From Betaproteobacteria bacterium (GTDB lineage: Bacteria > Pseudomonadota > Gammaproteobacteria > Burkholderiales > Burkholderiaceae_D), in the NCBI GenBank assembly GCA_025356395.1, contig JANXTA010000014.1, forward strand, positions 1 to 64,000: a stretch of 64,000 nucleotides of DNA, in the 5' to 3' direction. Shown here in pieces: positions 3,206-63,660 of the stretch (position 1 is its first letter; each line of letters opens with the position of its first letter). Below the pieces are notes generated by a model, which saw only the letters and a list, made by a program, of their open reading frames with translations, was not told where the DNA came from and searched no databases. The position numbers and the translations under genes are program-made.

Positions 3206-4396
3206 TCACACCGCCTGCCCGGATGCGAAACCCGACGACCAGGCCCACTGGAAGTTGTAGCCCCCCAGCCAGCCGGTCACGTCGACAGCCTCGCCGATGA
3301 AGTGCAGTCCCGGCATGCGCTTCGCCTCGAACGTCTTCTGCGACAGCTCGGCCGTGTCGACCCCGCCTGCTGTGACCTCGGCCTTGCGGAAGCCTTCAGT
3401 CCCGTCGGGGACGAGATGCCAGTGCTCCAGACCCGCAGCCAGCGCCGTCAGCGCGCCGTTCGACCATTCGGCGATGCGCCGATCGTCGATGCCCGCCGTC
3501 TGCTGCCACTGGCTCGCCAAGCGCTTTGGCAAGTAGTTCGCCAGCACCTGCGAAAGGTTCTGCTTCGAAGTGTCCTTCCGCTCCAGCAGCTCGACGCGCA
3601 GATCGCTCGCGGGCACGAGATCGATGGCCAGCGGCGTGCCCGGCTTCCAGTAGCTGGAGATCTGCAGGACCGCAGGGCCCGACAGGCCGCGATGGGTGAA
3701 CAGCAGGTCTTCGCGAAAACGGGCGGCGGTGCCGGCGCAGGCGACGTCGACCTCGACCGCGACGCCGCTCAAGGCCGCGAACGGTGCCCAGACGTCGGAC
3801 GAGAAGGTGAGAGGTACCAGCGCGGGCCGCGGCTCCACGACGCGGAGGCCGAAGCGCTTCGCGGTGCGATACGCGTAGTCGGTCGCACCGATCTTCGGGA
3901 TCGACAGGCCGCCGGTAGCGATCACAACGCTCTTCGCAGCGATCGATCCGCCTTCGGTCACGATGCGAAAGCCTTGCGCCGGATCGGGTACGAGATCGAC
4001 GATCGTCACCGGCCGTCGCCATTGCACCCGCCCCGCGTCGCACTCGGCGACCAGCATCGCGATGATCTGCTCGCTCGACTCGTCGCAGAACAACTGGCCG
4101 CGATGCTTCTCGTGGAAACCGATGCGATAGCGCATCACGAGATCGACGAAGTCCTGCGCCGTGTAGCCCTCAAGCGCCGAGCGTGCGAACTGCGGATTGT
4201 TGGAGATGAAGTTCGCGGGGCCGACTTCCCGATTGGTGAAGTTGCAGCGCCCGCCACCGGAGATGCGGATCTTCTCGGCCAGGCGCGCCGCGTGATCGAG
4301 CAGGACCACCGACCTGCCCCGTTGCCCGGCCACGGCCGCGCACATCATCCCGGCAGCGCCGGCGCCGATCACGGCGACGTCGAAGCGCTCGCTCAC
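3206..4396 (-). CDS. NAD(P)/FAD-dependent oxidoreductase (HI0933/BaiN family)
   Basis: This 396-residue flavoprotein belongs to the HI0933/BaiN-like group, whose cellular substrate is generally unknown. The N-terminal FAD-binding motif [10 protein letters not shown] is followed by GGGRCNFTN and, near the C-terminus, the family signature TAGGVDT and [20 protein letters not shown]. The track ORF runs 118 codons further upstream, but that part is an arginine-rich shadow of the neighbour. I chose the GTG at 4396, whose GTGA overlaps the stop of the preceding gene by 4 bp. This implies translational coupling in a three-gene operon with the two genes to its right. Confidence 0.9.
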
Positions 4397-4797
4397 GGAT
4401 CGAGACGTTCGCGGCAGTAGGTCTCGAGGAAGCGTTGCATCGCGAAGGCATCCGGCTCCCAGGCCGCGGCGAGCAGACGATCGGGACGCACGTAGACGTA
4501 CGTCTCCGCCTCGCGTGCGAGGCCGTCGATACCGGTCACCGTGACGACCGCGCGTCGATAGTCGTCGCCCTCGAAGTGATCGAGCCGCTGCAGGTCCTCC
4601 GCGTCGACGTCGAGATGCAGCACACCGGCGACCCGGGATCCATCGAGCGGCACCATGCCCGGGTAGTCCTCGCCGTCGATGGCGAAGCGCGCGTGACGGT
4701 CGAGGTGACCTTCCATGGACCCGTAGCTTCCAGAGACGACGAGCGACCACACCGCATCGAACATCAAGGACCCGTACGTGAAGACGTGGCGACTCAT
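4393..4797 (-). CDS. Gamma-glutamylcyclotransferase-like (AIG2 family) protein
   Basis: A 134-residue protein of the gamma-glutamylcyclotransferase-like fold, which acts on gamma-glutamyl amines or peptides. The N-terminal YGSLMF motif is the family's substrate-binding turn. The central LDHFEGDDYRR block carries the usual catalytic-region glutamate. The start at 4797 gives MSRHVFTYGSLMF and overlaps the upstream stop as ATGA. The longer track ORF is a shadow upstream of this ATG. The exact substrate cannot be read from the sequence. Confidence 0.88.
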   Translation of the reverse strand: MSRHVFTYGSLMFDAVWSLVVSGSYGSMEGHLDRHARFAIDGEDYPGMVPLDGSRVAGVLHLDVDAEDLQRLDHFEGDDYRRAVVTVTGIDGLAREAETYVYVRPDRLLAAAWEPDAFAMQRFLETYCRERLDP

Positions 4798-5783
4798 CGA
4801 GGCGGTTGCGTGATGAGCCAGCAACGATGGATACGGCCGTCGCGGAAATCGTCGGGCACGGTCTTCGCGCTGATCTCCTCGAAGCGCGCCTTCTCCTGAA
4901 CCAGCAGATCGAGCTCGAAGCTGCGCAGGTTGGTCGAGAAGAAGAGCGTGCCGCCCGGGGCCAACAGTGCGAGGCATTGGCGGATCAGCCACGGGTGGTC
5001 GCGCTGCACGTCGAGGATGCCCTGCATCGCCTTCGAGTTCGAGAAGGTCGGCGGATCGAGCACGATCAGGTCGACGCCGTCGCGGTCACCGGCCTCGTAG
5101 GCCGAAACCGCGTCGCGTAGCCACGTAAAGACGTCGGCGCGGACGATGCGATGGCGCACGAGATCGATCGAGTTCAATCGCAGGTTGCGTTCGGCCCACT
5201 GCGAGTACGTGTTCGACAGGTCGACGCTCTCGGACGAGATCGCTCCGGCGCGCGCGGCATGGACCGTGAAGCTGCCGGTGTAAGAGAACAGGTTGAGGAA
5301 GCGCTTGCCGCGTGCCCGTTCACCCACCATGCCGCGCGTCACGCGATGGTCGAGGAACAGGCCCGTGTCGAGGTAGCCGTACAGGTTGACGATGAAGCGA
5401 TGCCCGCCCTCGTGCACGACGAGGTCGTCCTCGTCCAGGCCGGTCGCCTCGTGCTGCGCCGTCTTGTCGCCACCCACCCGCTGCCGCCCACGATGCTTGA
5501 CCGCGATGCGATCGACCGGCAGCTCAAAGATCTCGGCGGCCACCTCGATCAGATGATCGATCCATTCGCGATGCTCGTCCTCGGACTGCTGCCAGCCGGT
5601 GTCGACCTCCTGGAATTGCAGCCAGGTGCCGCCCTCGGCGTCGAAGCAGTCGATGATCACCGGGAACTCGGGCACGTCGCAGTCGTAGGCGCGATAGGCA
5701 TGTATGTTGGAGCGTCGCGCCCACTTGCGAAGGTGGCGCGCGTTCTTCGCGAGGCGGTTGTGGAAGTGCGAGAGGTCGGTCAC
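4794..5783 (-). CDS. Class I SAM-dependent methyltransferase (RlmK/RlmI-like)
   Basis: About 329 residues, resembling the C-terminal RlmK half of the 23S rRNA methyltransferase RlmL/RlmK and related RlmI enzymes. The SAM-binding motif NLFSYTGSFTVHAARAGA and the catalytic-loop motif DPPTFSNSK are clear. The N-terminal NRLAKNARHLRKWARR also fits this group. The GTG at 5783 gives this conserved start; the 24 codons upstream in the track ORF do not look conserved. It is the first gene of a three-gene operon joined by 4-bp overlaps. The rRNA target is inferred only from family resemblance. Confidence 0.87.
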   Translation of the reverse strand: MTDLSHFHNRLAKNARHLRKWARRSNIHAYRAYDCDVPEFPVIIDCFDAEGGTWLQFQEVDTGWQQSEDEHREWIDHLIEVAAEIFELPVDRIAVKHRGRQRVGGDKTAQHEATGLDEDDLVVHEGGHRFIVNLYGYLDTGLFLDHRVTRGMVGERARGKRFLNLFSYTGSFTVHAARAGAISSESVDLSNTYSQWAERNLRLNSIDLVRHRIVRADVFTWLRDAVSAYEAGDRDGVDLIVLDPPTFSNSKAMQGILDVQRDHPWLIRQCLALLAPGGTLFFSTNLRSFELDLLVQEKARFEEISAKTVPDDFRDGRIHRCWLITQPPR

Positions 5784-5890
5784 GGCCAGAATTGTACGAG
5801 GGCGACGCCGGACGCTTCGTCGCAAGACGAAGCATCGACCTTCCCTTTCGTTCAAGCTCCTGCCATTCGCGTTGACGAGGAAGCCTCTCG

Positions 5891-6595
5891 ATGAAGCCCG
5901 CTCCCGAACCTCGCTTTGCCCGCATCGCCGCGATGATCGGCGACCCCACGCGCGCCCGCATGCTGGCCGCGCTGCTCGACGGCGCGATGCTGACCGCGGG
6001 GGAGATCGCGCAGTCCGCCGACGTCACGCCGCAGACCGCCAGCGCGCACCTCGCGAAGCTGCTCGATGCGGAACTGATCACGCTGCGCGTGCAGGGACGC
6101 CATCGCTACTTCAGGCTCGCGGACGGCGATGTCGCCCACGCGCTCGAAGCTCTTTCGGTCGTCGCCGACAAGGACGTCGACCAGCAACCCGGCCGCCGCA
6201 TGTGGTCGCGCGATGCGATGCAACCGCTGCGTCACGCGCGCACCTGCTACGGCCATCTCGCGGGTCACCTCGGCGTGCGCCTGCACGACGCGCTGGTCGA
6301 ACGCGCAGTGCTGGTGCAACGGGACGAACTTTACGTGCTGGGCGAGGACGGCCAGCGCTGGCTCGCGAGCCTGGGCTTCGACGCGACGACGGTCAGCGCG
6401 TCGGCTCGCGGCATGGCCTATCCCTGCGTCGACTGGTCAGAACGCCGCGACCATTTCGCAGGGCCGCTGGCGGTCGCGCTGCTCGACCACTTCGTCGTCG
6501 ATCACTGGCTCACCCGCATCGGAGACTCCCGCGCACTCGCCGTCACACCGAAGGCACGCCGCTTCTTCGACGACCTGTCGATCGCACACGCGTAA
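5891..6595 (+). CDS. ArsR-type helix-turn-helix transcriptional regulator
   Basis: A 234-residue regulator. Residues about 10-85 form an ArsR-type winged helix (IGDPTRARMLAALLDG, ADVTPQTASAHLAKL, RHRYFRL). The remaining roughly 150 residues are a long C-terminal extension without a motif I recognise. It is twice the length of classic ArsR metal sensors and shows no obvious metal-binding cysteine pair in the HTH, so a metabolite ligand or redox role is possible. It is divergent from the methyltransferase operon and convergent with phaB, separated from phaB by a terminator. Confidence 0.85.
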   Translation: MKPAPEPRFARIAAMIGDPTRARMLAALLDGAMLTAGEIAQSADVTPQTASAHLAKLLDAELITLRVQGRHRYFRLADGDVAHALEALSVVADKDVDQQPGRRMWSRDAMQPLRHARTCYGHLAGHLGVRLHDALVERAVLVQRDELYVLGEDGQRWLASLGFDATTVSASARGMAYPCVDWSERRDHFAGPLAVALLDHFVVDHWLTRIGDSRALAVTPKARRFFDDLSIAHA

Positions 6596-24980: not shown

Positions 24981-25466
24981 ATGGACATGCCGTCCCACCA
25001 ACTCACGATGACTGTGCTGATGACGCCCGGCATGGCGAACTTCAGCGGCAACGTGCACGGCGGCAGCATCCTGAAACTGCTCGACCAGGTCGCGTATGCC
25101 TGCGCGAGCCGCTACTCGGCGCGCTATGTCGTGACCCTCAGTGTCGACCAGGTGATGTTCCGCCAGCCAATTCACGTCGGCGAGCTGGTCGACTTCCTGG
25201 CGAGCGTCAACCACACCGGCACGTCGTCGATGGAGGTCGGCATCAAGGTGGTGGCACAGAACATCCTGACCCAGGCGACGCGTCACGTGAACAGCTGCTT
25301 CTTCACGATGGTGGCCGTCGACGATGCGAGAAAGCCGGTCACAGTGCGGGCGCTGCACCCTTCGACGCCTGACGAGATGCGTCGATTCGAGGCGGCGCTG
25401 TTGCGCAAGAAGCTGCGCGCCGAACTTCACGAGCGCTTCGCCGTGGAGATGCGCGACAGCAAATGA
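24981..25466 (+). CDS. Acyl-CoA thioesterase (hotdog fold, BACH/YciA-like)
   Basis: A 161-residue hotdog-fold thioesterase that hydrolyses acyl-CoA to free acid and CoA. The active-site region reads GNVHGGSILKLLDQVAYACA, with the conserved Asn and Asp of the YciA/BACH group. The second block is HTGTSSMEVGIKV. The start at 24981 has AAGGA upstream; the track ORF begins 11 codons earlier without such a site. It stands alone, divergent from odhA and upstream of a toxin-antitoxin pair. Substrate chain length cannot be told. Confidence 0.88.
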   Translation: MDMPSHQLTMTVLMTPGMANFSGNVHGGSILKLLDQVAYACASRYSARYVVTLSVDQVMFRQPIHVGELVDFLASVNHTGTSSMEVGIKVVAQNILTQATRHVNSCFFTMVAVDDARKPVTVRALHPSTPDEMRRFEAALLRKKLRAELHERFAVEMRDSK

Positions 25467-25527
25467 GGGCGACGAAGAGCGTCGCCGAAACGACGCTTGC
25501 CAGGGTCGACACCATTCTGTGGATCGA

Positions 25528-25541
25528 TGTGTAAGGACACA
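25528..25541 (+). promoter_or_regulatory. Inverted repeat over the antitoxin ribosome binding site
   Basis: TGTGT-AAGG-ACACA is a perfect inverted repeat whose loop is part of the AAGGA ribosome binding site of the downstream antitoxin gene. It may be an operator bound by the antitoxin or an RNA hairpin that limits translation. Confidence 0.5.
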
Positions 25542-25546
25542 CACAT

Positions 25547-25747
25547 ATGGCCACCAATCTTTCGCTGGACCCGGATGTCGTCGAACGTGCGCTCGCGGTC
25601 AGCGGCGAGAAGACCAAGAAAGCGGCTGTGACGCAGGCCCTGGAGGAATTCGTGGCGCGCCGTCGGCAGAAAGGGTTTGCAAACCTGATGGGCAAGCTCG
25701 AGTGGGAGCCTTCGTTCGACTACATGGCAGAGCGCTCCCGCAAATGA
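25547..25747 (+). CDS. VapB-type antitoxin
   Basis: A 66-residue antitoxin of a type II toxin-antitoxin pair. The N-terminal MATNLSLDPDVVERAL and KKAAVTQALEEFVARRR stretches fit the small ribbon-helix-helix-like VapB group (DUF2191-like). The C-terminal EWEPSFDYMAERSRK is the expected toxin-wrapping tail. Its stop overlaps the start of the PIN-domain toxin as ATGA. Start ATG 25547 has AAGGA nine bases upstream. Antitoxins of this sort usually repress their own promoter. Confidence 0.85.
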   Translation: MATNLSLDPDVVERALAVSGEKTKKAAVTQALEEFVARRRQKGFANLMGKLEWEPSFDYMAERSRK

Positions 25748-26184
25748 CGCTGCTGGTCGATACGAGCGTCTGGTCATTGGCCTTCCGGCGTGATGCCGAG
25801 CAGCAATCCACCGAGGTGCTGAAGCTCCGTGAGTCGCTGGACGGCGGCGAAGCGATCGTCATCACGGGCATCGTCCTGCAGGAGCTGTTGCAGGGATTCA
25901 GCGGACCGAGGGCGCGCGACATCATCATCGATCGTTTCGCGTCCCTCCCACTGCTCGCTCCCGACCGGAACGATCATATCGGCGCAGCCGCACAGCGCAC
26001 TACCTGTCGATGGGCAGCCGTACAACTCGGCACCATCGATGCGCTGCTGGCGCAGCTTTGCATCCGCCATCGATTGACGCTGCTCACCACCGACCGCGAC
26101 TTTGTCAACGCCGCCGCGCATTGCGCATTGATCGTCTGGGCGCCATCCCCAACAGCGTATCCGCGGCGAACTCGACGAACTTGA
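25744..26184 (+). CDS. VapC-type PIN-domain ribonuclease toxin
   Basis: A 146-residue PIN-domain protein, expected to be a metal-dependent RNase that inhibits translation when free of antitoxin. Acidic active-site residues are visible: D6 in LLVDTSVW, the glutamate in VLQELLQG, the aspartate in TIDALLAQLC and the last in TTDRDF. The start is the ATG overlapping the antitoxin stop; the longer track ORF is out-of-frame read-through of the thioesterase and antitoxin. The C-terminal CALIVWAPSPTAYPRRTRRT tail is longer and more basic than usual. The RNA target is unknown. Confidence 0.88.
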   Translation: MTLLVDTSVWSLAFRRDAEQQSTEVLKLRESLDGGEAIVITGIVLQELLQGFSGPRARDIIIDRFASLPLLAPDRNDHIGAAAQRTTCRWAAVQLGTIDALLAQLCIRHRLTLLTTDRDFVNAAAHCALIVWAPSPTAYPRRTRRT

Positions 26185-26226: not shown

Positions 26227-27501
26227 TCAGCCGAGGGTGTCGGCCCAGATGTTGCGCGCCCATCCCGCGGCGTAGGCCGCTTCGCCCGTCGATCGCGTCG
26301 CGGAGACGCCGCCCGAGCCGGGCACGATCCTGAAGGTCTTCTCCGCTTCGACGTAGGCGTGCACGCTGGCGATATGCATCGCCTCCGAGTCGCTGACGTA
26401 GCTGTAGCAGGTGTTCGTCAGCATCGGCTCGCGATCAACCTCGACGCCCGCGAACTCGGCGACGATCGCCGCGGCCGCGACCTTGCCGTGGCCGTTCGCC
26501 ATGTGCGCGGACTTCGGCATGGCCGGCGCGGCCAAAATCGAATCGCCGAGGACGTGCACGTCGCGTGCGACGGTCGACGCGAACGTCTGGTAGTCGATGG
26601 ACGCCCAGCGCGCGTTGGCGTCGACCAGGCCGCCGCGCACGAGAATGTCGCCGGCCCGCATCGGCGGTAACACGTTCAGCACGTCGGCGGTGACGTCCTC
26701 CGCAATCTCGAAGCGCAGCGTCATCGTCTTCGCGTCGACCGCCACGGCCTTGTGCAGCGGCCGGTATTCGACCATGCCGGGGTAGAGGTCGGCCCACGCT
26801 TTCCTGAACAGCGCCGGCTTCGACACGACGTCGGGATTGGCATCGAGTACCAGCACCTTCGAGCGCGGCTTGTTGGCCTTCAGCCAGGCCGCGACGACAC
26901 AGGCGCGTTCGTACGGTCCGGGCGGGCAGCGGTAAGGCGCCTCGGGAATCGCGATCGCGAACGTGCCGCCGTCACGCATCGCCAGTAGTTGCTTTCGCAA
27001 CGATTCGGTCTCGGTCCCTGCTTTCCAGGCCTGGAGGATGCGACCCTCGTCATGCGCCGCCGCGAGCCCTTCGATCGCATCGAAGACAAGGTCGGCACCC
27101 GGTGACACGACCAGCCGGTCGTAGCGGATCTGGTCGCCGCGCGCGAGTCTCACGGCTTTCCGCTCGACGTCGATCGCCGCCACGGTGTCGTGGACGATCG
27201 TGATGCCGTGGCGGGTCCGCAAGGCGTCGAACGACATCGTCAGGTCGCTCATGCGCCGCTGTCCGCCCACGACCAGGTTCGATACCGGGCACGACACGAA
27301 GTCGCGGCTCGGCTCGATCAGCACGACGTCCACCTGTCCGTCCGACAGCAGTCGCACGTACTTCGCCGCCGTCGCGCCCCCGAAGCCACCACCGACGACG
27401 ACCACACGAGCACGCGATGGACCCGACGCCGTCGCACAGCCGCCGATCGCCGACAGCCCCGCGCCACCGGCCATGACCTGCAGCAGGGTGCGTCTTTTCA
27501 T
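26227..27501 (-). CDS. fccB: Flavocytochrome c sulfide dehydrogenase, flavoprotein subunit
   Basis: FAD subunit of a periplasmic sulfide dehydrogenase (FccB/SoxF family) that oxidises sulfide and passes electrons to its cytochrome partner. The start MKRRTLLQVMAGGAG is a twin-arginine signal, followed by SAIGGC, which also resembles a lipobox. The FAD motif is VVVVGGGFGGATAAK. The redox-active cysteines are in FVSCPVSN (C71) and LTNTCYSYVS. The protein is 424 residues. The start overlaps the cytochrome gene by 4 bp. The 67 codons upstream in the track belong to a shadow frame. It is the last gene of the ior-sox operon. Confidence 0.92.
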   Translation of the reverse strand: MKRRTLLQVMAGGAGLSAIGGCATASGPSRARVVVVGGGFGGATAAKYVRLLSDGQVDVVLIEPSRDFVSCPVSNLVVGGQRRMSDLTMSFDALRTRHGITIVHDTVAAIDVERKAVRLARGDQIRYDRLVVSPGADLVFDAIEGLAAAHDEGRILQAWKAGTETESLRKQLLAMRDGGTFAIAIPEAPYRCPPGPYERACVVAAWLKANKPRSKVLVLDANPDVVSKPALFRKAWADLYPGMVEYRPLHKAVAVDAKTMTLRFEIAEDVTADVLNVLPPMRAGDILVRGGLVDANARWASIDYQTFASTVARDVHVLGDSILAAPAMPKSAHMANGHGKVAAAAIVAEFAGVEVDREPMLTNTCYSYVSDSEAMHIASVHAYVEAEKTFRIVPGSGGVSATRSTGEAAYAAGWARNIWADTLG

Positions 27502-27836
27502 GGCTGCCTCATGGAAACGAAGTAATCGGCGAGCACCTCGATCTGCCGGTCCGTGTAGCCGCGGGCGATCTGGTGCATCACGGTGGCGGCGCGACTGCCG
27601 TCGCGGAAGGCCCGCATCTGCGTGACCATCGCCTCCCTCGGATAGCCGGCCAGAGGGATCATCGCTGCTCCCGGCGCGGCCGCGCCGTCGGTACCATGGC
27701 ACGCGCCGCAGCTCGCCGCGAGCGAGCGCACCTGCAGCGCCGGAACGCTCGTCGTCTGTCCGGTCGCGGTCGTCATCCCGACCAGCGACACCACCGCGAG
27801 AAGGACTCGCGCACCCCGATACATTGCGAATTTCAT
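27498..27836 (-). CDS. Class I cytochrome c, sulfide dehydrogenase cytochrome subunit
   Basis: A 112-residue exported monoheme cytochrome c. The signal peptide is at the N-terminus (RVLLAVVSLVGMTTATG), the heme site is CGACH, and the distal methionine is probably in the MIPLAGYP or VMHQIARGY region. Small size and tight overlap with fccB indicate the electron-accepting subunit of flavocytochrome c (FccA/SoxE type), though it has one heme rather than two. It starts 10 bp after soxA. Confidence 0.88.
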   Translation of the reverse strand: MKFAMYRGARVLLAVVSLVGMTTATGQTTSVPALQVRSLAASCGACHGTDGAAAPGAAMIPLAGYPREAMVTQMRAFRDGSRAATVMHQIARGYTDRQIEVLADYFVSMRQP

Positions 27837-27846
27837 GATGCCTCTC

Positions 27847-28623
27847 TCACGGTCGTACGGTCGGGGTCTCGACCGGCAGTCCAGCCGCGCGTTGCTTGAG
27901 GTACAGCTCGAGCTCGACCAATTCCGGCGCCTCGTCCTCGAACGGCTCCGCCCGAACCCCGGTCATGCAGCCACGGACACGCCGCGCCAGCGAGCCGACA
28001 CTCTGCCACTCGAGCCGGTAAATCGGATAGCCGGTGGGGTGGGCTTGCGGGATGACGCTGCCGGCAAGGCGCCGGCCGGCATTGGCGTCGTGACATTGTG
28101 CGCAGGACAGGTCGAGTTGGCCCATGCGCTGCCGGAAGAGTGCCTCGCCTCGCGCACGGTGCAGCTGAAGGCGCGCGTCGGCCGGCGATGCAATCGACAG
28201 ACCACGGGACTGGCGGCCGACGAAGGCTTCGAGCGCGAGCAACGTGTCGTTCTCGCGATCGAGTCGTGGTGCGTTCTGGTGCCGTGTCCGGCACGCGTTG
28301 ATGCGGCCCGACAGGCTGATCGGTCGACCACTGGCCTCGTCGAACGCCGGATAGCGCGCGGCGACGCCGCGCATGCTCGTCGCCGCATCGCCGTGGCACG
28401 ACGCACACGAACGATCGTCCGCGCCGGCCTTCGTCGTCCACAACGACTCGCCGTCCTTGACCCACAAGGTGCCCGGATTCGACGCCTCGTCTTCCTGCAT
28501 GGCTTGCAGCGCAGCGCTCATGAACTCGAAACCCGAGCGTCGCTCGTCGCTAGCCTGCGCGACCGCCAGTCCCGCCACGATCGCCAGACCCGCGAAGACC
28601 TTCAGGATCACGCCGGGCGTCAT
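27847..28623 (-). CDS. soxA: Sulfur oxidation c-type cytochrome SoxA
   Basis: SoxA pairs with SoxX and joins thiosulfate to the SoxY cysteine in the periplasm. The 258-residue protein has a signal peptide and two heme sites: CASCH (C73) and CAQCH (C174), so it is the diheme form. The cysteine heme ligands expected for diheme SoxA are visible at C111 (INACRTRH) and C219 (RGCMTGVRAEP), the latter being the catalytic persulfidated cysteine position. The start overlaps soxZ by 4 bp. Confidence 0.94.
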   Translation of the reverse strand: MTPGVILKVFAGLAIVAGLAVAQASDERRSGFEFMSAALQAMQEDEASNPGTLWVKDGESLWTTKAGADDRSCASCHGDAATSMRGVAARYPAFDEASGRPISLSGRINACRTRHQNAPRLDRENDTLLALEAFVGRQSRGLSIASPADARLQLHRARGEALFRQRMGQLDLSCAQCHDANAGRRLAGSVIPQAHPTGYPIYRLEWQSVGSLARRVRGCMTGVRAEPFEDEAPELVELELYLKQRAAGLPVETPTVRP

Positions 28624-28940
28624 GTCACGACGATCGGCACGGTCTCGACCTGCATGAACCCGTTGTCCCCTTCCCAGGTGCAGATCAACGTCCCGCTCGC
28701 GGTCGCGACCGTGAAGAAACTGATCAGCGGATTCGCCGAGACCGCGGGAAACAGGTCGGCGGCGAAGATCTCCTCGCCGTCGTAGCGGCAGGTGAAACGA
28801 CGGATGATGTTGCGCGGCAGTGGCGCTCCCCCGTCGCCGCTCCGATACCCGGTCTCCATCGGATGCGCGATCAACGTGCGGATCTCGATGACGTCGCCGC
28901 GTGCGGCGGACTTGGGAACGGTGACGAGTGCGCGGGCCAT
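28620..28940 (-). CDS. soxZ: Thiosulfate oxidation carrier subunit SoxZ
   Basis: A 106-residue protein, the immunoglobulin-like partner of SoxY in the SoxYZ sulfur carrier. The segments VIEIRTLIAHPMETGYR, FTCRYDGEEIF and FTVATASGTLICTWEGDNG are typical of SoxZ. It has no signal peptide of its own, as expected, because SoxZ travels with SoxY. It lies 4 bp after soxY and overlaps soxA. Confidence 0.95.
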   Translation of the reverse strand: MARALVTVPKSAARGDVIEIRTLIAHPMETGYRSGDGGAPLPRNIIRRFTCRYDGEEIFAADLFPAVSANPLISFFTVATASGTLICTWEGDNGFMQVETVPIVVT

Positions 28941-28944
28941 GGGG

Positions 28945-29412
28945 TCAAATCTCGATGCAGGCGGCGATCGTGACGATCACGTCGGTGTCGTCCTGCCAGA
29001 ACGAGCCGTCGCTCATCTCCGCCACCGCGACCAGCCGTTGCGACGTCGCGAGCCGGATGCGCGTCGACACGCTGGCCTTGCCGGCGCGCGGGCCGAGCAT
29101 GAAGACCGCCACGTCGCGCTGCGGGTTCTTCTCGTTGAACAGCGCGATGCGCCGCACATGATCGGCCGCCGTCATCGGGCTCTGGACGTCGACCGTGATC
29201 GGCGCGGCGTTGCCATTCTCGATCAGCAGCGCGATGCCGAGCTTGACGCGGCCCTTCGCCAACGGCGCGCTACCGGTGAACTCGCGCAGCGCGGCTTTCA
29301 GGTCCGGCGCAGGCTCGCCCCGCGCGGGGCGCAGCGCGACGAGCGCACCGAAACCCACCGCTGTCCGCAACGCGCGACGACGCGCAGGGTCGGACGGATC
29401 GTCGTGCCTCAT
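28945..29412 (-). CDS. soxY: Thiosulfate oxidation carrier protein SoxY, unusual C-terminus
   Basis: SoxY carries sulfur intermediates on a C-terminal cysteine. The 155-residue protein has a Tat-like signal (RRRALRTAVGFGALVAL) and a SoxY body ending in VTIAACIEI. The cysteine is at residue 152. Canonical SoxY ends in GGCGG, a flexible arm that lets the cysteine swing between enzymes. Here the flanking glycines are replaced by Ala-Ala and Ile-Glu-Ile, although the VTI lead-in and the cysteine align. This may alter carrier mobility or substrate. It overlaps soxX by 4 bp and precedes soxZ by 4 bp. Confidence 0.88.
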   Translation of the reverse strand: MRHDDPSDPARRRALRTAVGFGALVALRPARGEPAPDLKAALREFTGSAPLAKGRVKLGIALLIENGNAAPITVDVQSPMTAADHVRRIALFNEKNPQRDVAVFMLGPRAGKASVSTRIRLATSQRLVAVAEMSDGSFWQDDTDVIVTIAACIEI

Positions 29413-29858
29413 CGGCGCAGCGTGACGAGGAAAGCGACCACGTCCTCGACCTGTTGCGCGTCGAGCACCGGCTGGTCGCGGAATGCCTTGCCGACGCGGC
29501 GGCCTTCGGCGGCGCGAAAGTAGGACGGCATGATCGTGTCAGGATTCAGGCGTCGCGAGTCGACGATGCGCAGGCGCAACTGGCCCTCGCTCCAGCGCAT
29601 ACCCGCACCGGCCAGAGGGGGGGCCAGCGTGCCCTGCGAACGCTCGTCAGGGAACGGGCCGGTGTGGCACATCAGGCACAGGCCGACCTGGCGGTCGCCG
29701 ACGATCGCACGACCGCGATCGGCGTCGCCTGGCGTCGAGGTCAGCGGCTGCGGCACGGCATCGCCGACCACGTCGATGCTGTCGGAAGCATGCGAGGAAG
29801 CTGTACTGGCCATCAAGAGAACAAGCATCGCTGCACGACATGCCGACGACAGCGACAT
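29409..29858 (-). CDS. soxX: Sulfur oxidation c-type cytochrome SoxX
   Basis: SoxX accepts electrons from SoxA during conjugation of thiosulfate to SoxY. The 149-residue protein has an N-terminal signal peptide and one heme site, CLMCH (C61-H65). The probable distal ligand is M110 in TIMPSYF. The blocks GPFPDERSQGTLAPPLAG and RIVDSRRLNPDTIMP match SoxX. It starts 7 bp after the molybdenum hydroxylase large-subunit stop and overlaps soxY. Confidence 0.93.
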   Translation of the reverse strand: MSLSSACRAAMLVLLMASTASSHASDSIDVVGDAVPQPLTSTPGDADRGRAIVGDRQVGLCLMCHTGPFPDERSQGTLAPPLAGAGMRWSEGQLRLRIVDSRRLNPDTIMPSYFRAAEGRRVGKAFRDQPVLDAQQVEDVVAFLVTLRR

Positions 29859-29865
29859 GTCTCGC

Positions 29866-32037
29866 TCAGGCCTTCTTCAGGCTGTGGTTCTTGACCGGGA
29901 GATCGCGGATGCGCTTGCCAGTCGCCGCGAAGATCGCGTTGAGCACGGCCGGTGCGGCGACCGCGATGGTGGGCTCGCCCACCCCACCCCAGAATCCACC
30001 CGACGAAACGATGACGGTCTCGACCTTCGGCATCTCGTGCAGGGCCATCACCCGGTAGGTGTTGAAGTTGCGTTGCTCGATGCGTCCGTCTTTGACGGTG
30101 CACTCGCCGTAGAGCGCCGCCGACAGGCCATAGACGAACGAGCCCTCGACCTGCGCCTCGATCTGCTGCGGGTTGACGGCGTAGCCAGGATCGGTCGCGG
30201 CGACGATGCGATGCACCTTGAGCACGCCGTCGTCGCTGACCGAAACCTCGGCCACCGCGGCGACGTAGCTGCCGAAGCCCATCGTCTGCGCGATCCCCCG
30301 ATGGACGCCGGCCGGCAAGGGCTTGCCCCAGCCCGCACGTTCGGCAGCCGCGTTCAGCACCGCGAGATGCTTGGGGTTCTGCGCCATCAGCTTCTGGCGG
30401 AAGGCCAGCGGATCCTGCTTGGTCGCGTGCGCCAGTTCGTCGATGAAACTTTCGAGATAGAGCGTGTTCTGGTTGAGGTTGACGCCGCGCCAGAAGCCCG
30501 GCGGCACGTGCGGATTGCGCATCGCATGGTCGATCAGCACGGCCGGGAACGTGTAGCCGATCGAGGCTTCGGGGCCAGGCGCGTTGAGCCCCTGGAACAC
30601 CACGGGATCCTTGCCGTTCACGACGTTCTGCGGCGCGACGTAAGCCAGGATCGACTGGCCCGAGATCCGCATTTGGAAGCCGGTGACGGCCCCCTTGTCG
30701 TCGAGGCCGGCGCTCATCCTGCACTGGGTCACTGGATGGTAGCGACCGTGCAGCATGTCCTCCTCGCGCGACCAGATCAGCTTGACCGGCGTGCCCGGCA
30801 TCTCCTTGGCGATCGCGACCGCCTGCTTGATCCAGTCGACCGCACCGCGACGACCGAAGCCGCCCCCCAGCAACTGCTTGTAGACGTCGCACTGGGACAG
30901 CGGCAGCCCCGCGGCCTCCGCGGTCGCCGCCAGCGCGGCCTCGCCGTTCTGGGTCGGCGTCCAGACCTCGCAGCGCTCGGGCGTCCAGCGCGCGACGGCA
31001 TTCATCGTCTCCATCGTCGCGTGGTTCTGGTGCGGATACGAATACACCGCCTCGACACGTCGGGGGGCCGCCGCGATGGCGGCGCGCGCGTCGCCGACCG
31101 AATAACCGACCGCGGCCTCGGGTGCATCCAGGCCCGCCTTCAGCACCTCGCCGAAGGCCGCGCTCGATGCGTTGGCATGCTCGCCGTAGTCCCACTCGAT
31201 CGTCAGGGCTTCGAGTCCCTTCTTCGCGTGCCACCAGGTGTCGGCGACCACCGCGACGGCCGAGTCGCCGACGCGCACCACGCGCTTAACGCCCGGTCGC
31301 GCGAGCGCCGCGGCATCGTCGACGCTGCGAACCGTGCCGCCGAACACCGGGCAATCGACGATGGCCGCGTTCAGCATGCCAGGCATCGTCAGATCGCTGC
31401 CGTAGATCTGCGCGCCGGTCGTCTTGTCGACCGTATCGAGCCGCGCCAAGCGCTTGCCGGCGATCTTCCAGTCCTTCGGGTCCTTCAACGGGATGTCGGT
31501 CGGCGGCTGCATCGTGGCCGCGACCGCCGCGACCTTGCCGAACGTCGTCGTGCGTCCGCTCGGCAGATGGGTGATCACGCTGGCTTCGGCCCGGCACTCG
31601 TTCGCCGGCACCTGCCAGCCGGCCGCAGCCGCCTGGGCCAGCATCATGCGGGCCGTGGCGCCGCCCTTGCGGACGTATTCCTGGGACTCGCGAATGCCGC
31701 GGCTGCCGCCGGTCGAGAAATTGCCCCAGACGCGTTTGCGCGCCAGGCTCTGTCCCGGCGTGGGGTACTCGGTGGTGACCCGGGTCCAGTCGCAGTCGAG
31801 CTCTTCGGCGACGAGTTGCGCGAGCCCGGTCAGCGAGCCCTGGCCCATCTCCGAGCGCGCGATGCGGATGACGACGGTGTCGTCGGGCTTCACGACGACC
31901 CACGCGTTGATCTCGGGCGCGCCGGCCTCCTGCGCCGAGGCCCTCAGCGGGAATCCGAGCACGAAGGCACCCGCGGCGACAGAGCCGATGAACTCGCGGC
32001 GAGTGACCTTGAAGCCGCCGGTCACGGCGCGGCTCAC
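29866..32037 (-). CDS. Molybdenum hydroxylase large subunit (isoquinoline 1-oxidoreductase beta type)
   Basis: A 723-residue xanthine dehydrogenase-family protein of the IorB type, which binds the molybdopterin cytosine dinucleotide cofactor. The Tat-like signal [14 protein letters not shown] predicts periplasmic export. Cofactor-region motifs include [40 protein letters not shown], where the Arg-flanked loop is typical, and the C-terminal [19 protein letters not shown] with the catalytic glutamate. The GTG at 32037 overlaps the small-subunit stop as GTGA. The substrate is unknown; aldehydes or N-heterocycles are family substrates. It sits directly upstream of soxX. Confidence 0.9.
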
Positions 32038-32531
32038 GTGATGCTCCGGGTCAGGTGCACCACGTCGACGCTCGCCGTCCTCGGTTCCCCGGCGGCGAGC
32101 TTGATGGCGGCGCGCACGCGGTTGTAGGTCCCGCACCGGCAGATGTTGGTCATGGCTTCATCGATCTGCTTGTCGGTCGGACGCGGCGCCTCGCGCAGCA
32201 ACGCGGCCGCTGCCATGATCATCCCGGACTGGCAGAAGCCGCATTGCGGCACGTCGAGCGCCACCCATGCCTTCTGCACCGGATGCGATCCGCCTGGGGC
32301 GAGACCTTCGATTGTGACGACCTTCGCGGACGAAGACACCGACGAGACCGGCCGAACGCAGCTGCGCGTGTTCTGTCCGTCGATGTGGACAGTGCACGCG
32401 CCACATTGCGCGATGCCGCATCCGTACTTCGTGCCGGTCAGGCCGAGCTGTTCGCGCAGCACCCAGAGCAAGGGCGTGTCGGGCTCGGCCTCGAACTCCC
32501 GCACCGTTCCGTTGACGTTCAGACTGGGCAT
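32034..32531 (-). CDS. (2Fe-2S)-binding small subunit of molybdenum hydroxylase (IorA type)
   Basis: A 165-residue protein with two [2Fe-2S] domains that move electrons from the molybdenum site. The N-terminal plant-ferredoxin-type cluster has C38, C43, C46 and C58 ([14 protein letters not shown]). The C-terminal four-helix cluster has CGFCQSG and CRCGTYN. It lacks a signal and probably travels with the Tat-targeted large subunit. It overlaps that gene by 4 bp. No FAD-binding medium subunit gene is present, which matches the two-subunit Ior type using a cytochrome acceptor. Confidence 0.93.
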
Positions 32532-32584
32532 GGAATTCCTTTCGTTGACGGGATCGACGCGCGTTGTTTCGGGGTGCTCAAGGT

Positions 32585-33187
32585 TCAGGTGGGACAGTAC
32601 GCTCCAGCGTCGACCCAGGCCTGCATCAACTCGCCCAACTGCTGCTGCGTCCCGGGAGCGGGCGTGCGGCTACCACCGGGATTCCAGCCCCAGCCGACCA
32701 GCGGGTCGTGCGCCATGTGGTCGACGATCTGCATCATCGTCCTGCCACCGTTGCGCTTCGGATCCTTGATCTGCTGGCAGATCTGTCGAAGCGATTTGCC
32801 TTCCCAGGCCATCTCGATGGGTGCGAGGTGCCAGTTCGGACTGCCGGGCACCGTGACGTTGGCCGACGCGACGTAGTTGCTGGCGCCGTGGCAGGTGGAG
32901 CAGGGCATCGCGACGGCGCCGTGTCCATCCTTGCCGCGCACCGCCAATGGCTGGTGGAGCTGCATGGCATCGCCTTGCAACGGCCGGTCGGTCCGCGGAT
33001 GGCAATTGACGCAACGCGGATGCTGGATGACCTTGCCGGCCTCCTGGAACAACGCAGCGGCGCGTACCTTTGAGACGGTCATCGACGCGAACGAATCGAC
33101 GGATCGCAGCGATGTGTAGGGCGCGGACTGTGCGACGACCTGACAGCAAGCCACAAGCGCCAGACAGCCCAACAGGATCCTCTTCAT
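32585..33187 (-). CDS. Diheme c-type cytochrome, probable electron acceptor of the molybdenum hydroxylase
   Basis: A 200-residue exported protein with signal peptide ([15 protein letters not shown]) and two heme-binding sites, CVNCH (C59) and CSTCH (C96). Similar proteins next to iorA/iorB genes are often named isoquinoline 1-oxidoreductase subunit. It lacks other recognisable domains. As the first gene of the ior-sox unit it probably carries electrons from the molybdoenzyme to the respiratory chain or to other cytochromes of the operon. The start lies 75 bp after the gltA stop. Confidence 0.82.
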
Positions 33188-33262: not shown

Positions 33263-34573
33263 TCAGCGATCGGCGATCGGCTTCACGTCCCGTCGTGGCG
33301 CGCCGACATACAGCTGGCGCGGGCGACCGATCTTCTGTTCCGGGTCCGAAATCATCTCGTTCCACTGCGCGATCCAGCCGACCGTGCGCGCCATCGCGAA
33401 GATCGCCGTGAACAGCGTCGTCGGGATGCCGAGCGCGCTCTGCACGATGCCCGAATAGAAGTCGACGTTCGGATAGAGCTTGCGCGAGACGAAGTATTCG
33501 TCCTCGAGGGCGATCTTCTCGAGCGCCATCGCGAGCTTGAACAGCGGGTCGTCATGCAGGCCGAGTTCGTCGAGCACCTCGTGGCAGGTCTCGCGCATCA
33601 GCTTCGCGCGCGGGTCGTAGTTCTTGTAGACGCGGTGACCGAACCCCATCAGCTTGACGTTGGAATTCTTGTCCTTGACCTGGGCGATGAACTCGGGGAG
33701 CTTGGCCTCGCCGCCTTGCGCCTGCAGGTCCTTCAGCATGTTCAGCGCCGCTTCGTTGGCGCCGCCGTGCGCGGGCCCCCACAGACAGGCGATGCCCGCC
33801 GCGATGCACGCGAACGGATTGGCGCCCGACGAGCCGGCGAGGCGCACCGTCGAGGTCGACGCGTTCTGCTCGTGGTCGGCATGCAGGATCAGGATACGAT
33901 CGAACGCGCGCACCATCACGTCGTTCGGCACGTACTCCTCGGCGGGCACGGCGAACATCATGCGCAGGAAGTTGGCGCTGTACGAGAGGTCGTTGCGCGG
34001 ATACACGAACGGCTGGCCGATCACGTACTTGTAGGCCATCGCGACCAGCGTCGGCAGCTTGGCGATCAGGCGGATTGCCGATACGTCGCGATGCCGCGGG
34101 TCGTTGATGTCGAGCGAGTCGTGATAGAAGGCCGACAGCGCGCCGACCGTGCCCACCAGCACCGCCATCGGATGCGAGTCGCGCCGGAAGCCGCGATAGA
34201 AGAAGGTCATCTGCTCATGGACCATCGTGTGCTGCGTGACGAGGTGCACGAACTCCTTCTTCTGCGTTTCGGTCGGCAGTTCGCCGTGCAACAGCAGATA
34301 GCAGGTCTCGAGGTAGTCGCCACCGGTCGCGAGCTGCTCGATCGGATAGCCGCGATACAGCAGTTCGCCCTTGTCGCCGTCGATGTACGTGATGGTCGAT
34401 TGGCAGGCGGCCGTCGACATGAAGCCCGGGTCGTACGTGAACATGCCCGTTTGCCCGTAAAGCTTGCGGATGTCAATGACGTCCGGCCCGATCGTGCCCT
34501 TGAAGACCGGCAGGTCCATGTCCTGCGATCCGTTGGAGAGCGCGAGCTTTGCTTTGATGTCGGAGGAAACCAT
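33263..34573 (-). CDS. gltA: Type II citrate synthase
   Basis: Condenses acetyl-CoA and oxaloacetate to citrate. The 436-residue length and the zinc-type N-terminal domain ([27 protein letters not shown], only in part) mark the NADH-sensitive type II form. Catalytic residues lie in [20 protein letters not shown] and [18 protein letters not shown] 34573 gives the conserved start, with GGAGGAAAC upstream. It follows sdhE with a 178-bp gap and closes the sdhCDAB-sdhE-gltA run. Confidence 0.96.
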
Positions 34574-34751
34574 GCTTGAGTCCTTCAGTGAACTTCGTGG
34601 ATTGTCTGAATCGTCTGCGACGGCCTGACTGCTTGCGAAAGACCGCGGCATTCATCCCGGGTCGGCTGCTGCGGACGCGACGCGGAGTCGTATTTCGAGA
34701 CTGCTTGTTCCGAACCTCTCCCGAGGGCCGGCAATACCGGACTGACCCTCG

Positions 34752-62062: not shown

Positions 62063-63660
62063 GGGGGATGCGGCATAAATCTTGGACTGGTTAAGCAGCG
62101 AGCCCGAGGCTCCTTCGGTGCTCGATGGGGCTGCGGAAGCCTAGTGAGATCTTGATCCGCTTCTCGTTGTACCAACGGATGTAGGAGTCCAGTGCCTCGA
62201 CGAACTGCTCGATGGTCGTGGACAGCCAGGTCTGCGGATAGAACAGCTCGGTCTTTAGACGGCCGAAGAAGCCTTCACACGCCGCGTTGTCCGGCGAGTA
62301 CCCCTTGCGCGACATCGAGCGCACCAGCTTCGCGTCGGTGATCCGAGACAGCCATCCAGGCCATCGATAGTGGGCGCCGCGATCGGAGTGGACCACGGGC
62401 CGGTCGTTGCTGGCCGCGACCGTCTCGATGGCAGCCTCCAACATCGTGTTGACGGGCTCAGCGTCCGGGCGCGTGCCGATCGACCAGCTGCGACCATGCC
62501 ATCGAAGCAGTCGATCATGGGCGACAGGTAGACCTTGCCCGCCGGGATCTGGAACTCGGTGATGTCGGTGAGCCACTTCTCGTTCGGCGCTGACGCGCTG
62601 AAGTCGCGGTTGAGGAGGTTGACTGGCGCCGGACTGATCTCACCCAGGTACGAGCCGTATCGTCGGCGTTTCGGCGTGACGGCGACCAAGCACTCCTGCT
62701 TCATCAGGCGCCGCACCACTTTCTCCGAAATGCACACGCACCGCCTGCTCAGCGAAGCCTGCATCCGGCGGTAGCCATAACAACGATGGTTGCGCTCGAA
62801 GATGTCGGTCATGGTTCGACGCGCCTCGACGTACTTGTCCGCGACATCGCGCCGGGCCCGATGGTAGAAGTATGAGCTGCGTGCCAAGCCCACTTCGTCC
62901 AGCAACTCCGTCAGCGTGTAGGTCTGCCTCAGGGCATCAACCAGCTGCGTCTTCTCCCGATTGGTCAGGAGCTGCCGGTCGATGCCCACGTCTTTTTTTA
63001 TGATTTCATTCGCCTTCTTCGGCAGGTCTTGCTCGAGCTGCAGGCGCCGGATGTCTCGACGAAGCGGTTCGAGCTGTTGTTCCAGCTCGGTTCGTTCAGG
63101 GCTTGGCGGGGAGTCTTGCTGGCGCTTCATGGATGCGAGTGCCTCGTGGCCGAGTAGCTGAGTCTTCCAGTTGTACAACGTCGGCCTGCACACGCCCAGC
63201 TGTTGAGCAACCGCCTGCGCACTTCCTTGTCGGGTGCACAACGCGATCACCGCGGCCTGTTTCAGCGAAGGCGTTAGCCTCTGGGACCTGCCAACAACGC
63301 GCGTGCGTGTCTGCGGATGCAGCTCTTGAACCCACGCGGGAAGCGACCCACGTCCGGGATAGCCCAGTGTCTTGATCGTTGCCGAGACGCAGCGGCCGTG
63401 CTCCAGATAGTGTTCGACGGCCAATTCCTTCTGCGCCTGCGAATACTTCGGCGGGCGCATATAGCCAGTGTGCAAGTCAAGCCGCTGTTCGTACTCTTGA
63501 TGCCAGCTCTTGAGCGAGTTCTTGGTCGGGTAACCCAGCTGACAAATGGTCGCCGCGATTCGTTTACCCAGCTTGATGTAGAGCCGCACTGCTCGAACTC
63601 GATCTTTGTATGAATACATGAACTACCTCCAGGTAGTCCAAGTTTTTGTCCGCACCCCCC
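62063..63660 (-). mobile_element. IS3-type insertion sequence, about 1.6 kb
   Basis: The element holds one IS3-type transposase reading frame on the minus strand. Its probable 26-bp ends are GGGGGATGCGG...CTTGGACT on the left (62063-62088) and the reverse complement GGGGGGTGCGG...CTTGGACT on the right (63635-63660), matching at 21 of 26 positions. I see no clear target-site duplication. The right end sits inside a broken EpsA-like gene, and the left flank is not the rest of that gene, so a deletion or rearrangement followed insertion. Confidence 0.75.
62091..63619 (-). pseudogene. IS3-family transposase with a -1 frameshift
   Basis: A retroviral-integrase-type DDE transposase of the IS150-like group. 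The N-terminal 170 residues hold three helix-turn-helix repeats. The catalytic Asp residues are in WLTDITEFQ and VVHSDRGAHY, and the Glu is in ACEGFFGRLKTE. The frame changes after MIDCFDGMV at about 62,490: the first frame continues AGRSARARTL, while the other continues SWSIGTRPDAEP, the expected sequence. One T seems lost. An A7G tract encoding IIKKD, where IS3 elements normally shift between orfA and orfB, lies at 62994-63000. The element is probably inactive. Confidence 0.82.

Follow-up and report, generated by a model that had tools for sequence, protein, structure and literature searches.

An altered SoxY carrier tied to a molybdenum hydroxylase instead of SoxB points to an apparently undescribed oxidation of sulfur-containing compounds

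A nine-gene operon in the genome of a Betaproteobacteria bacterium (assembly GCA_025356395.1, contig JANXTA010000014.1, positions 1 to 64,000; these 64,000 nucleotides are referred to here as the window) combines genes for an IorAB-type molybdenum hydroxylase with genes for a Sox sulfur carrier and a flavocytochrome c sulfide dehydrogenase. The carrier, SoxY, is of an altered type, and its tie to the molybdoenzyme instead of SoxB points to a widespread and apparently undescribed route by which a compound that contains sulfur is oxidised outside the cell membrane. All nine are encoded on the minus strand and are read from 33187 to 26227 in the order diheme cytochrome, iorA, iorB, soxX, soxY, soxZ, soxA, monoheme cytochrome and fccB; this set, order and strand had been given in an earlier note on the same DNA and are borne out by the sequence and by family matches. 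Direct measurement likewise agrees with the tight packing reported there: from iorA to fccB, neighbouring genes either overlap by 4 bp or stand at most 10 bp apart. Overlaps of 4 bp join iorA to iorB (GTGA), soxX to soxY, soxZ to soxA, and the monoheme cytochrome gene to fccB, and spacings are 7 bp at iorB/soxX, 4 bp at soxY/soxZ and 10 bp at soxA/cytochrome; the diheme cytochrome gene stands 53 bp from iorA. The start of iorB is a GTG at 32037 and that of fccB is at 27501, as against the mechanical open reading frame start at 27702. To say that the operon "fuses" its modules, as the earlier note did, was loose wording, as there is no gene fusion.

The carrier had been taken for a plain soxY; it is in fact a variant, in a genome that lacks SoxB. 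Its product (28945..29412) has a twin-arginine translocation (Tat) signal and a terminal cysteine, Cys152, and belongs to the NCBIfam family TIGR04487, "SoxY-related AACIE arm protein" (200.5 bits, cut-off 172), whereas it fails the model for true SoxY, TIGR04488 (92.1 bits against a cut-off of 125). The tail reads VTIAACIEI, with an arm ending in AACIEI, where the crystallised SoxY reads VTIGGC; an alignment of 41 SoxYs shows the terminal cysteine in every one. Bit score alone was dropped as a marker of the AACIE type, canonical alphaproteobacterial SoxYs scoring 110–145 bits. The soxZ gene (28620..28940) is separate, scoring 76 bits with TIGR04490 at a cut-off of 76 (Pfam SoxZ, 1.4e-24), and soxY and soxZ reach only 50.0 and 34.7 bits with the fused-SoxYZ model TIGR04557, which has a cut-off of 140. 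The same genome carries a second SoxY-family gene, encoding a 289-residue fused SoxYZ on contig C80 (L074, 7418–8287). A metallo-beta-lactamase-like gene flanks it on either side and a cytochrome b561-like gene is close by; the protein resembles the quinoprotein-associated carrier.

The form of the arm follows the presence of the molybdoenzyme. None of the 120 complete SoxYs whose locus includes IorB ends in GGCGG, as against 15 of the 19 without it, and the remaining four unlinked SoxYs have an IorB of the same clade (described below) elsewhere in the genome, at 54–72% identity. In Methylobacterium sp. WSM2598, iorA-iorB-cytochrome-fccB forms a separate locus (L249). Arm type and IorB thus change together, and because the link between carrier and enzyme survives their separation, this is the strongest evidence that the two work together.

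Linkage of the two sets of genes is extensive. We read 40 loci with this SoxY type from an order sample of 200 genomes, the best 80 loci of a species scan (one genome per GTDB-named species), and 20 SoxY loci of a phylum sample, 15 of which have canonical GGCGG SoxYs. An iorB gene lies near sox genes in 121 of these 140 SoxY-family loci, from Alpha-, Beta- and Gammaproteobacteria, so that the junction is not unique to this assembly; a chance junction or assembly artefact is ruled out by this conservation. Linkage in other Burkholderiales was looked for in the order sample and found at 37 of 40 loci; the corresponding figures are 79 of 80 in the species scan, the sole unlinked locus being that of Methylobacterium sp. 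WSM2598, and 5 of 20 in the phylum sample. The genera include Polaromonas, Massilia, Duganella, Noviherbaspirillum, Chelatococcus, Microvirga, Azorhizobium, Bradyrhizobium (as in Bradyrhizobium sp. ARR65, L148), Neorhizobium, Roseomonas and Steroidobacter, together with one Rokubacteria metagenome-assembled genome that may be misbinned, and the annotated TIGR04487 copies of Neorhizobium and Methylobacterium also lie within ior-sox operons. At 117 of the 121 linked loci the genes share a strand with iorB first, and the median gap from iorB to the next gene is about 11 bp. The window's order from iorA to fccB recurs at 13 loci, in Noviherbaspirillum, Duganella, Massilia and Pseudoduganella; many alphaproteobacteria place the cytochrome and fccB genes between iorB and soxX, and about a third of the order sample has only iorAB-soxYZ at the locus.

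As these loci were collected through SoxY, their linkage rates are conditional on it, and a reverse search with IorB in 60 genomes therefore matters as the unbiased check. It gave 13 full-length matches of at least 49% identity, and 12 of these lie beside SoxYZ. Both IorB and SoxY occur in 12 of the genomes, one alone in none and neither in 48 (p = 7e-13, which is only indicative, the species not being independent). The 20 unlinked IorB matches that we read have no sox genes nearby, and all but one are below 48% identity. The exception (L162, 59% identity) belongs to the sox-linked clade and adjoins two YeeE-like membrane genes (3226–6355) that, by sequence, appear similar to known sulfur importers. 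Two partial matches of about 62% identity are decayed copies; in one of them (L239, 5300–6102) an iorB fragment and the last part of soxA are joined, and the intervening sox genes are lost. The earlier claim that molybdoenzyme and sulfur carrier belong together is upheld by linkage kept across classes, by co-occurrence in the 60 genomes, and by the genomes in which the genes are split.

The enzyme is of the two-subunit type with molybdenum and [2Fe-2S] centers, and no gene for the flavin adenine dinucleotide (FAD) subunit of the xanthine oxidase family is present in the operon. The small subunit, IorA (32034..32531), has two [2Fe-2S] domains (Pfam Fer2_2, 8e-29; Fer2, 1.3e-9), and the xanthine oxidase family molybdenum subunit, IorB (29866..32037; Pfam MoCoBD_1/2), has a Tat signal (RREF), a GGGFG motif (391–395) and a catalytic glutamate, E688, conserved and aligned to structure 8gy3. 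Chain 8gy3_C, from the Gluconobacter membrane-bound aldehyde dehydrogenase, is the nearest solved structure by sequence (E 2.6e-77), and 8gy3 is also the nearest by predicted fold (predicted local distance difference test, pLDDT, 85.8; template modelling score, TM, 0.82), these models being informative on fold and confidence alone. The name isoquinoline 1-oxidoreductase is, as far as sequence can tell, a matter of homology only; other IorAB-like enzymes oxidise deoxyribose or vanillin and probably work in the periplasm, passing electrons to a cytochrome (PMC6365646). A tree of 129 IorBs places the SoxYZ-linked sequences in a single clade of 105 with support of 1.0, other than L069 and second copies, which fall outside it. 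Trp683, five residues before E688, is found in all 105 clade members, and proline takes this place in 20 of the 24 others; F682-W683 and several arginines (58, 61, 100, 102 and 507) are specific to the clade. These private residues fit a distinct, shared and possibly anionic substrate, the identity of which they do not give.

No SoxB was found in the window's own genome, which is 98% complete (best match 57.9 bits, cut-off 550). Because SoxB is also missing from 13 of the 39 genomes with an AACIE-type SoxY, we conclude from gene content that it is not needed by the AACIE-SoxY system. SoxXA does seem to be needed, since all 15 genomes tested whose ior-sox locus lacks it, five of them without SoxB, have SoxA elsewhere; a core of IorAB and SoxYZ only, prompted by these SoxXA-less loci, was dropped once this was found. 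In four of five extra loci read (L254, L255, L257 and L258) SoxA belongs to a second sox set, the SoxY of which keeps the GGC arm where the tail is readable (L254, L255 and L258). We also observe that L254 (6648–8301) and L255 (6364–8436) come from SoxB-less genomes in which an ior locus is accompanied by a second, SoxB-less sox set with a GGC arm. In the window, SoxX (29409..29858; TIGR04485, 77.6 bits, cut-off 61) is a monoheme cytochrome and SoxA (27847..28623; TIGR04484, 218 bits, cut-off 110) is diheme. Both exceed their family cut-offs and have the cysteine-ligated haem of canonical SoxXA: both CxxCH haem motifs of SoxA and its active-site Cys219, which matches the ligand cysteine of structurally solved SoxA, are invariant in our alignments. 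Membership in the canonical thiosulfate Sox system was rejected, there being neither a GGCGG arm nor SoxB. A SoxC-type protein (586.6 bits) with an adjoining c-type cytochrome is encoded on contig C34, unlinked to the operon; this locus (L191, 5906–7862), in its SoxB-less genome, lies downstream of a periplasmic-binding-protein gene and encodes a sulfite/sulfane dehydrogenase type.

The modules at the two ends of the operon are less constant. FccB (26227..27501; 1fcd_A, E 3.9e-96; FCSD_central, 1.9e-43) is the flavoprotein of flavocytochrome c sulfide dehydrogenase and has the FAD fold and both redox cysteines, its RCPPGPYERA and NTCYS motifs aligning to 1fcd; the adjoining monoheme cytochrome c (27498..27836; one CxxCH, a weak Cytochrome_CBB3 match) is its partner. 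This module is optional in the ior-sox system, as FccB occurs at 34 of the 80 species-scan loci, with the short monoheme cytochrome accompanying fccB in most. The diheme c-type cytochrome (32585..33187; two CxxCH), a probable electron acceptor for IorAB, is indeed the first gene of the operon, as had been noted, and is apparently a local extra. We do not count it in the conserved set, as no significant homologue was found across 120 ior-sox loci. Its relatives adjoin ordinary iorAB genes without sox and, in Ensifer and Loktanella, lie downstream of iorAB under the annotation "Isoquinoline 1-oxidoreductase subunit". Sinorhizobium meliloti pSymA (L159, 9031–11472) has a small carrier module of another kind, soxY-soxZ-cytochrome-fccB, which lacks both soxXA and ior; many S. 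meliloti plasmids give SoxY matches.

The genomes examined establish the parts, their predicted location, the linkage, the arm change and the loss of SoxB. The best explanation, which we judge to stand evenly between right and wrong, is a periplasmic pathway, encoded by the operon, with a specialised SoxYZ carrier feeding the molybdenum hydroxylase IorAB in place of the SoxB step. SoxXA-type cysteine-ligated haem centers form S–S bonds in Sox and in TsdA. Here SoxXA would oxidatively join a thiol-containing, probably organic, compound to Cys152 of SoxY by a disulfide. IorAB would then oxidise a carbon of the bound compound by aldehyde-type or hydroxylation chemistry, standing in for SoxB, and electrons would pass through the [2Fe-2S] centers to c-type cytochromes. 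Sulfur remaining on SoxY, or freed as sulfide or persulfide, would go to FccB and its cytochrome where these are present. The earlier note had proposed a molybdoenzyme acting on a SoxYZ-bound sulfur compound, and we infer this as the best among the readings tested. The broader proposition, that carrier-bound organosulfur oxidation of this kind is widespread, with SoxXA loading an organic thiol on the altered SoxYZ and the hydroxylase acting on the bound molecule in place of SoxB, is put forward tentatively, and the balance tips slightly against it. If true, this would be to our knowledge the first molybdenum hydroxylase known to work on a protein-tethered substrate. Several points count against such a pathway. 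No fusion protein of the partners was seen, co-regulation alone can conserve operons, and the linkage rates carry the conditionality given above. Small free substrates are usual for molybdenum hydroxylases, and the IorB of L162, being apart from sox, may work without an adjoining carrier.

The order of events could also be sequential and without contact, IorAB oxidising a free organosulfur compound and releasing sulfide or inorganic sulfur that SoxXA, SoxYZ and FccB collect and oxidise. The FccB and cytochrome genes at 34 of 80 loci, the ior-free soxYZ-cytochrome-fccB set on pSymA and the use of free aldehydes by the nearest characterised IorAB relatives all agree with this. It is weakened because SoxYZ rather than FccB is the constant partner, where a sulfur sink should be replaceable; moreover, full-length clade IorBs accompany SoxYZ in 12 of 13 cases of the IorB-based search, and the arm change tracks IorB. 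We regard it as unlikely.

It is rather improbable that sulfur is not the substrate at all, Cys152 instead trapping an aldehyde as a thiohemiacetal whose oxidation by IorAB yields a thioester or acid. FccB would then have no role, and the sulfur-linking SoxXA, present in most operons and, where the locus has none, elsewhere in each of the 15 genomes tested, speaks against it. On the other side, the closest IorAB relatives are aldehyde dehydrogenases, iorAB-soxYZ-only loci exist (about a third of the order sample), and other divergent SoxYZ adjoin pyrroloquinoline quinone (PQQ) alcohol, methanol and formate dehydrogenases (PMC11237559).

A role in cofactor care, with persulfide-loaded SoxYZ (charged through SoxXA and FccB) restoring the terminal sulfido ligand of molybdenum in exported IorB, we consider highly improbable. 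Enzymes of the xanthine oxidase family require this Mo=S ligand, all the parts are periplasmic, and XdhC-type factors are present in the genome and not in the operon. Against the idea, many exported relatives of IorB stand without SoxYZ in their vicinity (20 of 20 unlinked loci in the genome sample), and the active-site residues private to the linked clade suggest a different substrate. That the enzymes are unrelated and merely co-regulated in the same habitat is scarcely credible, given how tightly the genes are coupled, that they stay together across classes and co-occur even in genomes where they are split, and that the arm changes to match.

The operon is flanked by gltA (33263–34651) and by a PIN-domain gene, and tricarboxylic acid cycle genes (sucA, gltA, sdh and mdh) surround it. 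Read-through from gltA may occur, because the first gene of the operon is only 75 bp downstream on the same strand. A promoter and terminator scan was uninformative (no promoters; four terminator-like sites against 3.9 expected). No substrate transporter or catabolic neighbour conserved at ior-sox loci was found; the flanks are variable, with scattered TctC, TauE and ATP-binding cassette (ABC) genes. The PIN-domain gene is toxin-like (25324–26184) and lies between a thioesterase gene and the operon, with a possible small partner just upstream. An IS3-type transposase-like open reading frame (62255–63619) is close to the end of the window.

The presence of soxX, soxA and soxZ puts genomes with this system at risk of being annotated as thiosulfate oxidisers, in spite of the altered carrier and the possible absence of SoxB. 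If the proposed carrier-bound pathway is correct, one common way in which soil and plant-associated bacteria such as Bradyrhizobium, Methylobacterium, Massilia and Polaromonas oxidise sulfur or organosulfur compounds has been overlooked, and it would be a new branch of organosulfur oxidation. The carrier offers a direct way to the substrate, as the molecule attached to SoxY when IorB is absent. In the open-access literature searched we found no report of an IorAB-Sox link, and none of a function or molybdoenzyme link for TIGR04487; subscription literature was mostly outside this search and novelty is unproven. In Bradyrhizobium diazoefficiens thiosulfate oxidation requires only soxY1, of the standard locus (PMC5748708).

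Each module has parallels in known systems. The TIGR04487 family, of which this SoxY is a member, is named by its arm only. As in flavocytochrome c sulfide dehydrogenase and SoxF, FccB has both redox cysteines and a c-type cytochrome, but the cytochrome gene here is short and monoheme and the module is optional; SAR324 genomes have flavocytochrome c beside soxYZ (PMC4782131). With the IorAB-type dehydrogenases of deoxyribose and vanillin, and that of Gluconobacter (8gy3), the enzyme shares molybdenum and [2Fe-2S] subunits, Tat export, a c-type cytochrome acceptor and the catalytic glutamate, whereas its IorB is set apart by a separate clade, Trp683 where the others mostly have proline, and a near-constant SoxYZ partner. 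SoxYZ-S2 and SoxYZ-S4 (compare TIGR04557) are likewise SoxY relatives tied to a periplasmic dehydrogenase and not to SoxB (PMC11237559), but are fused where soxY and soxZ are separate here. That study proposed non-thiosulfate roles for fused SoxYZ near alcohol, methanol and formate dehydrogenases, and the AACIE-arm family lies outside it because sequences without GGC were removed. The canonical Sox system shares SoxX, SoxZ, SoxA with its haem and cysteine ligands, and a cysteine-bearing SoxY; it differs in that here the SoxC-type protein sits on another contig, SoxB is absent from operon and genome, the arm is AACIE and not GGCGG, and a molybdenum hydroxylase stands in SoxB's place.

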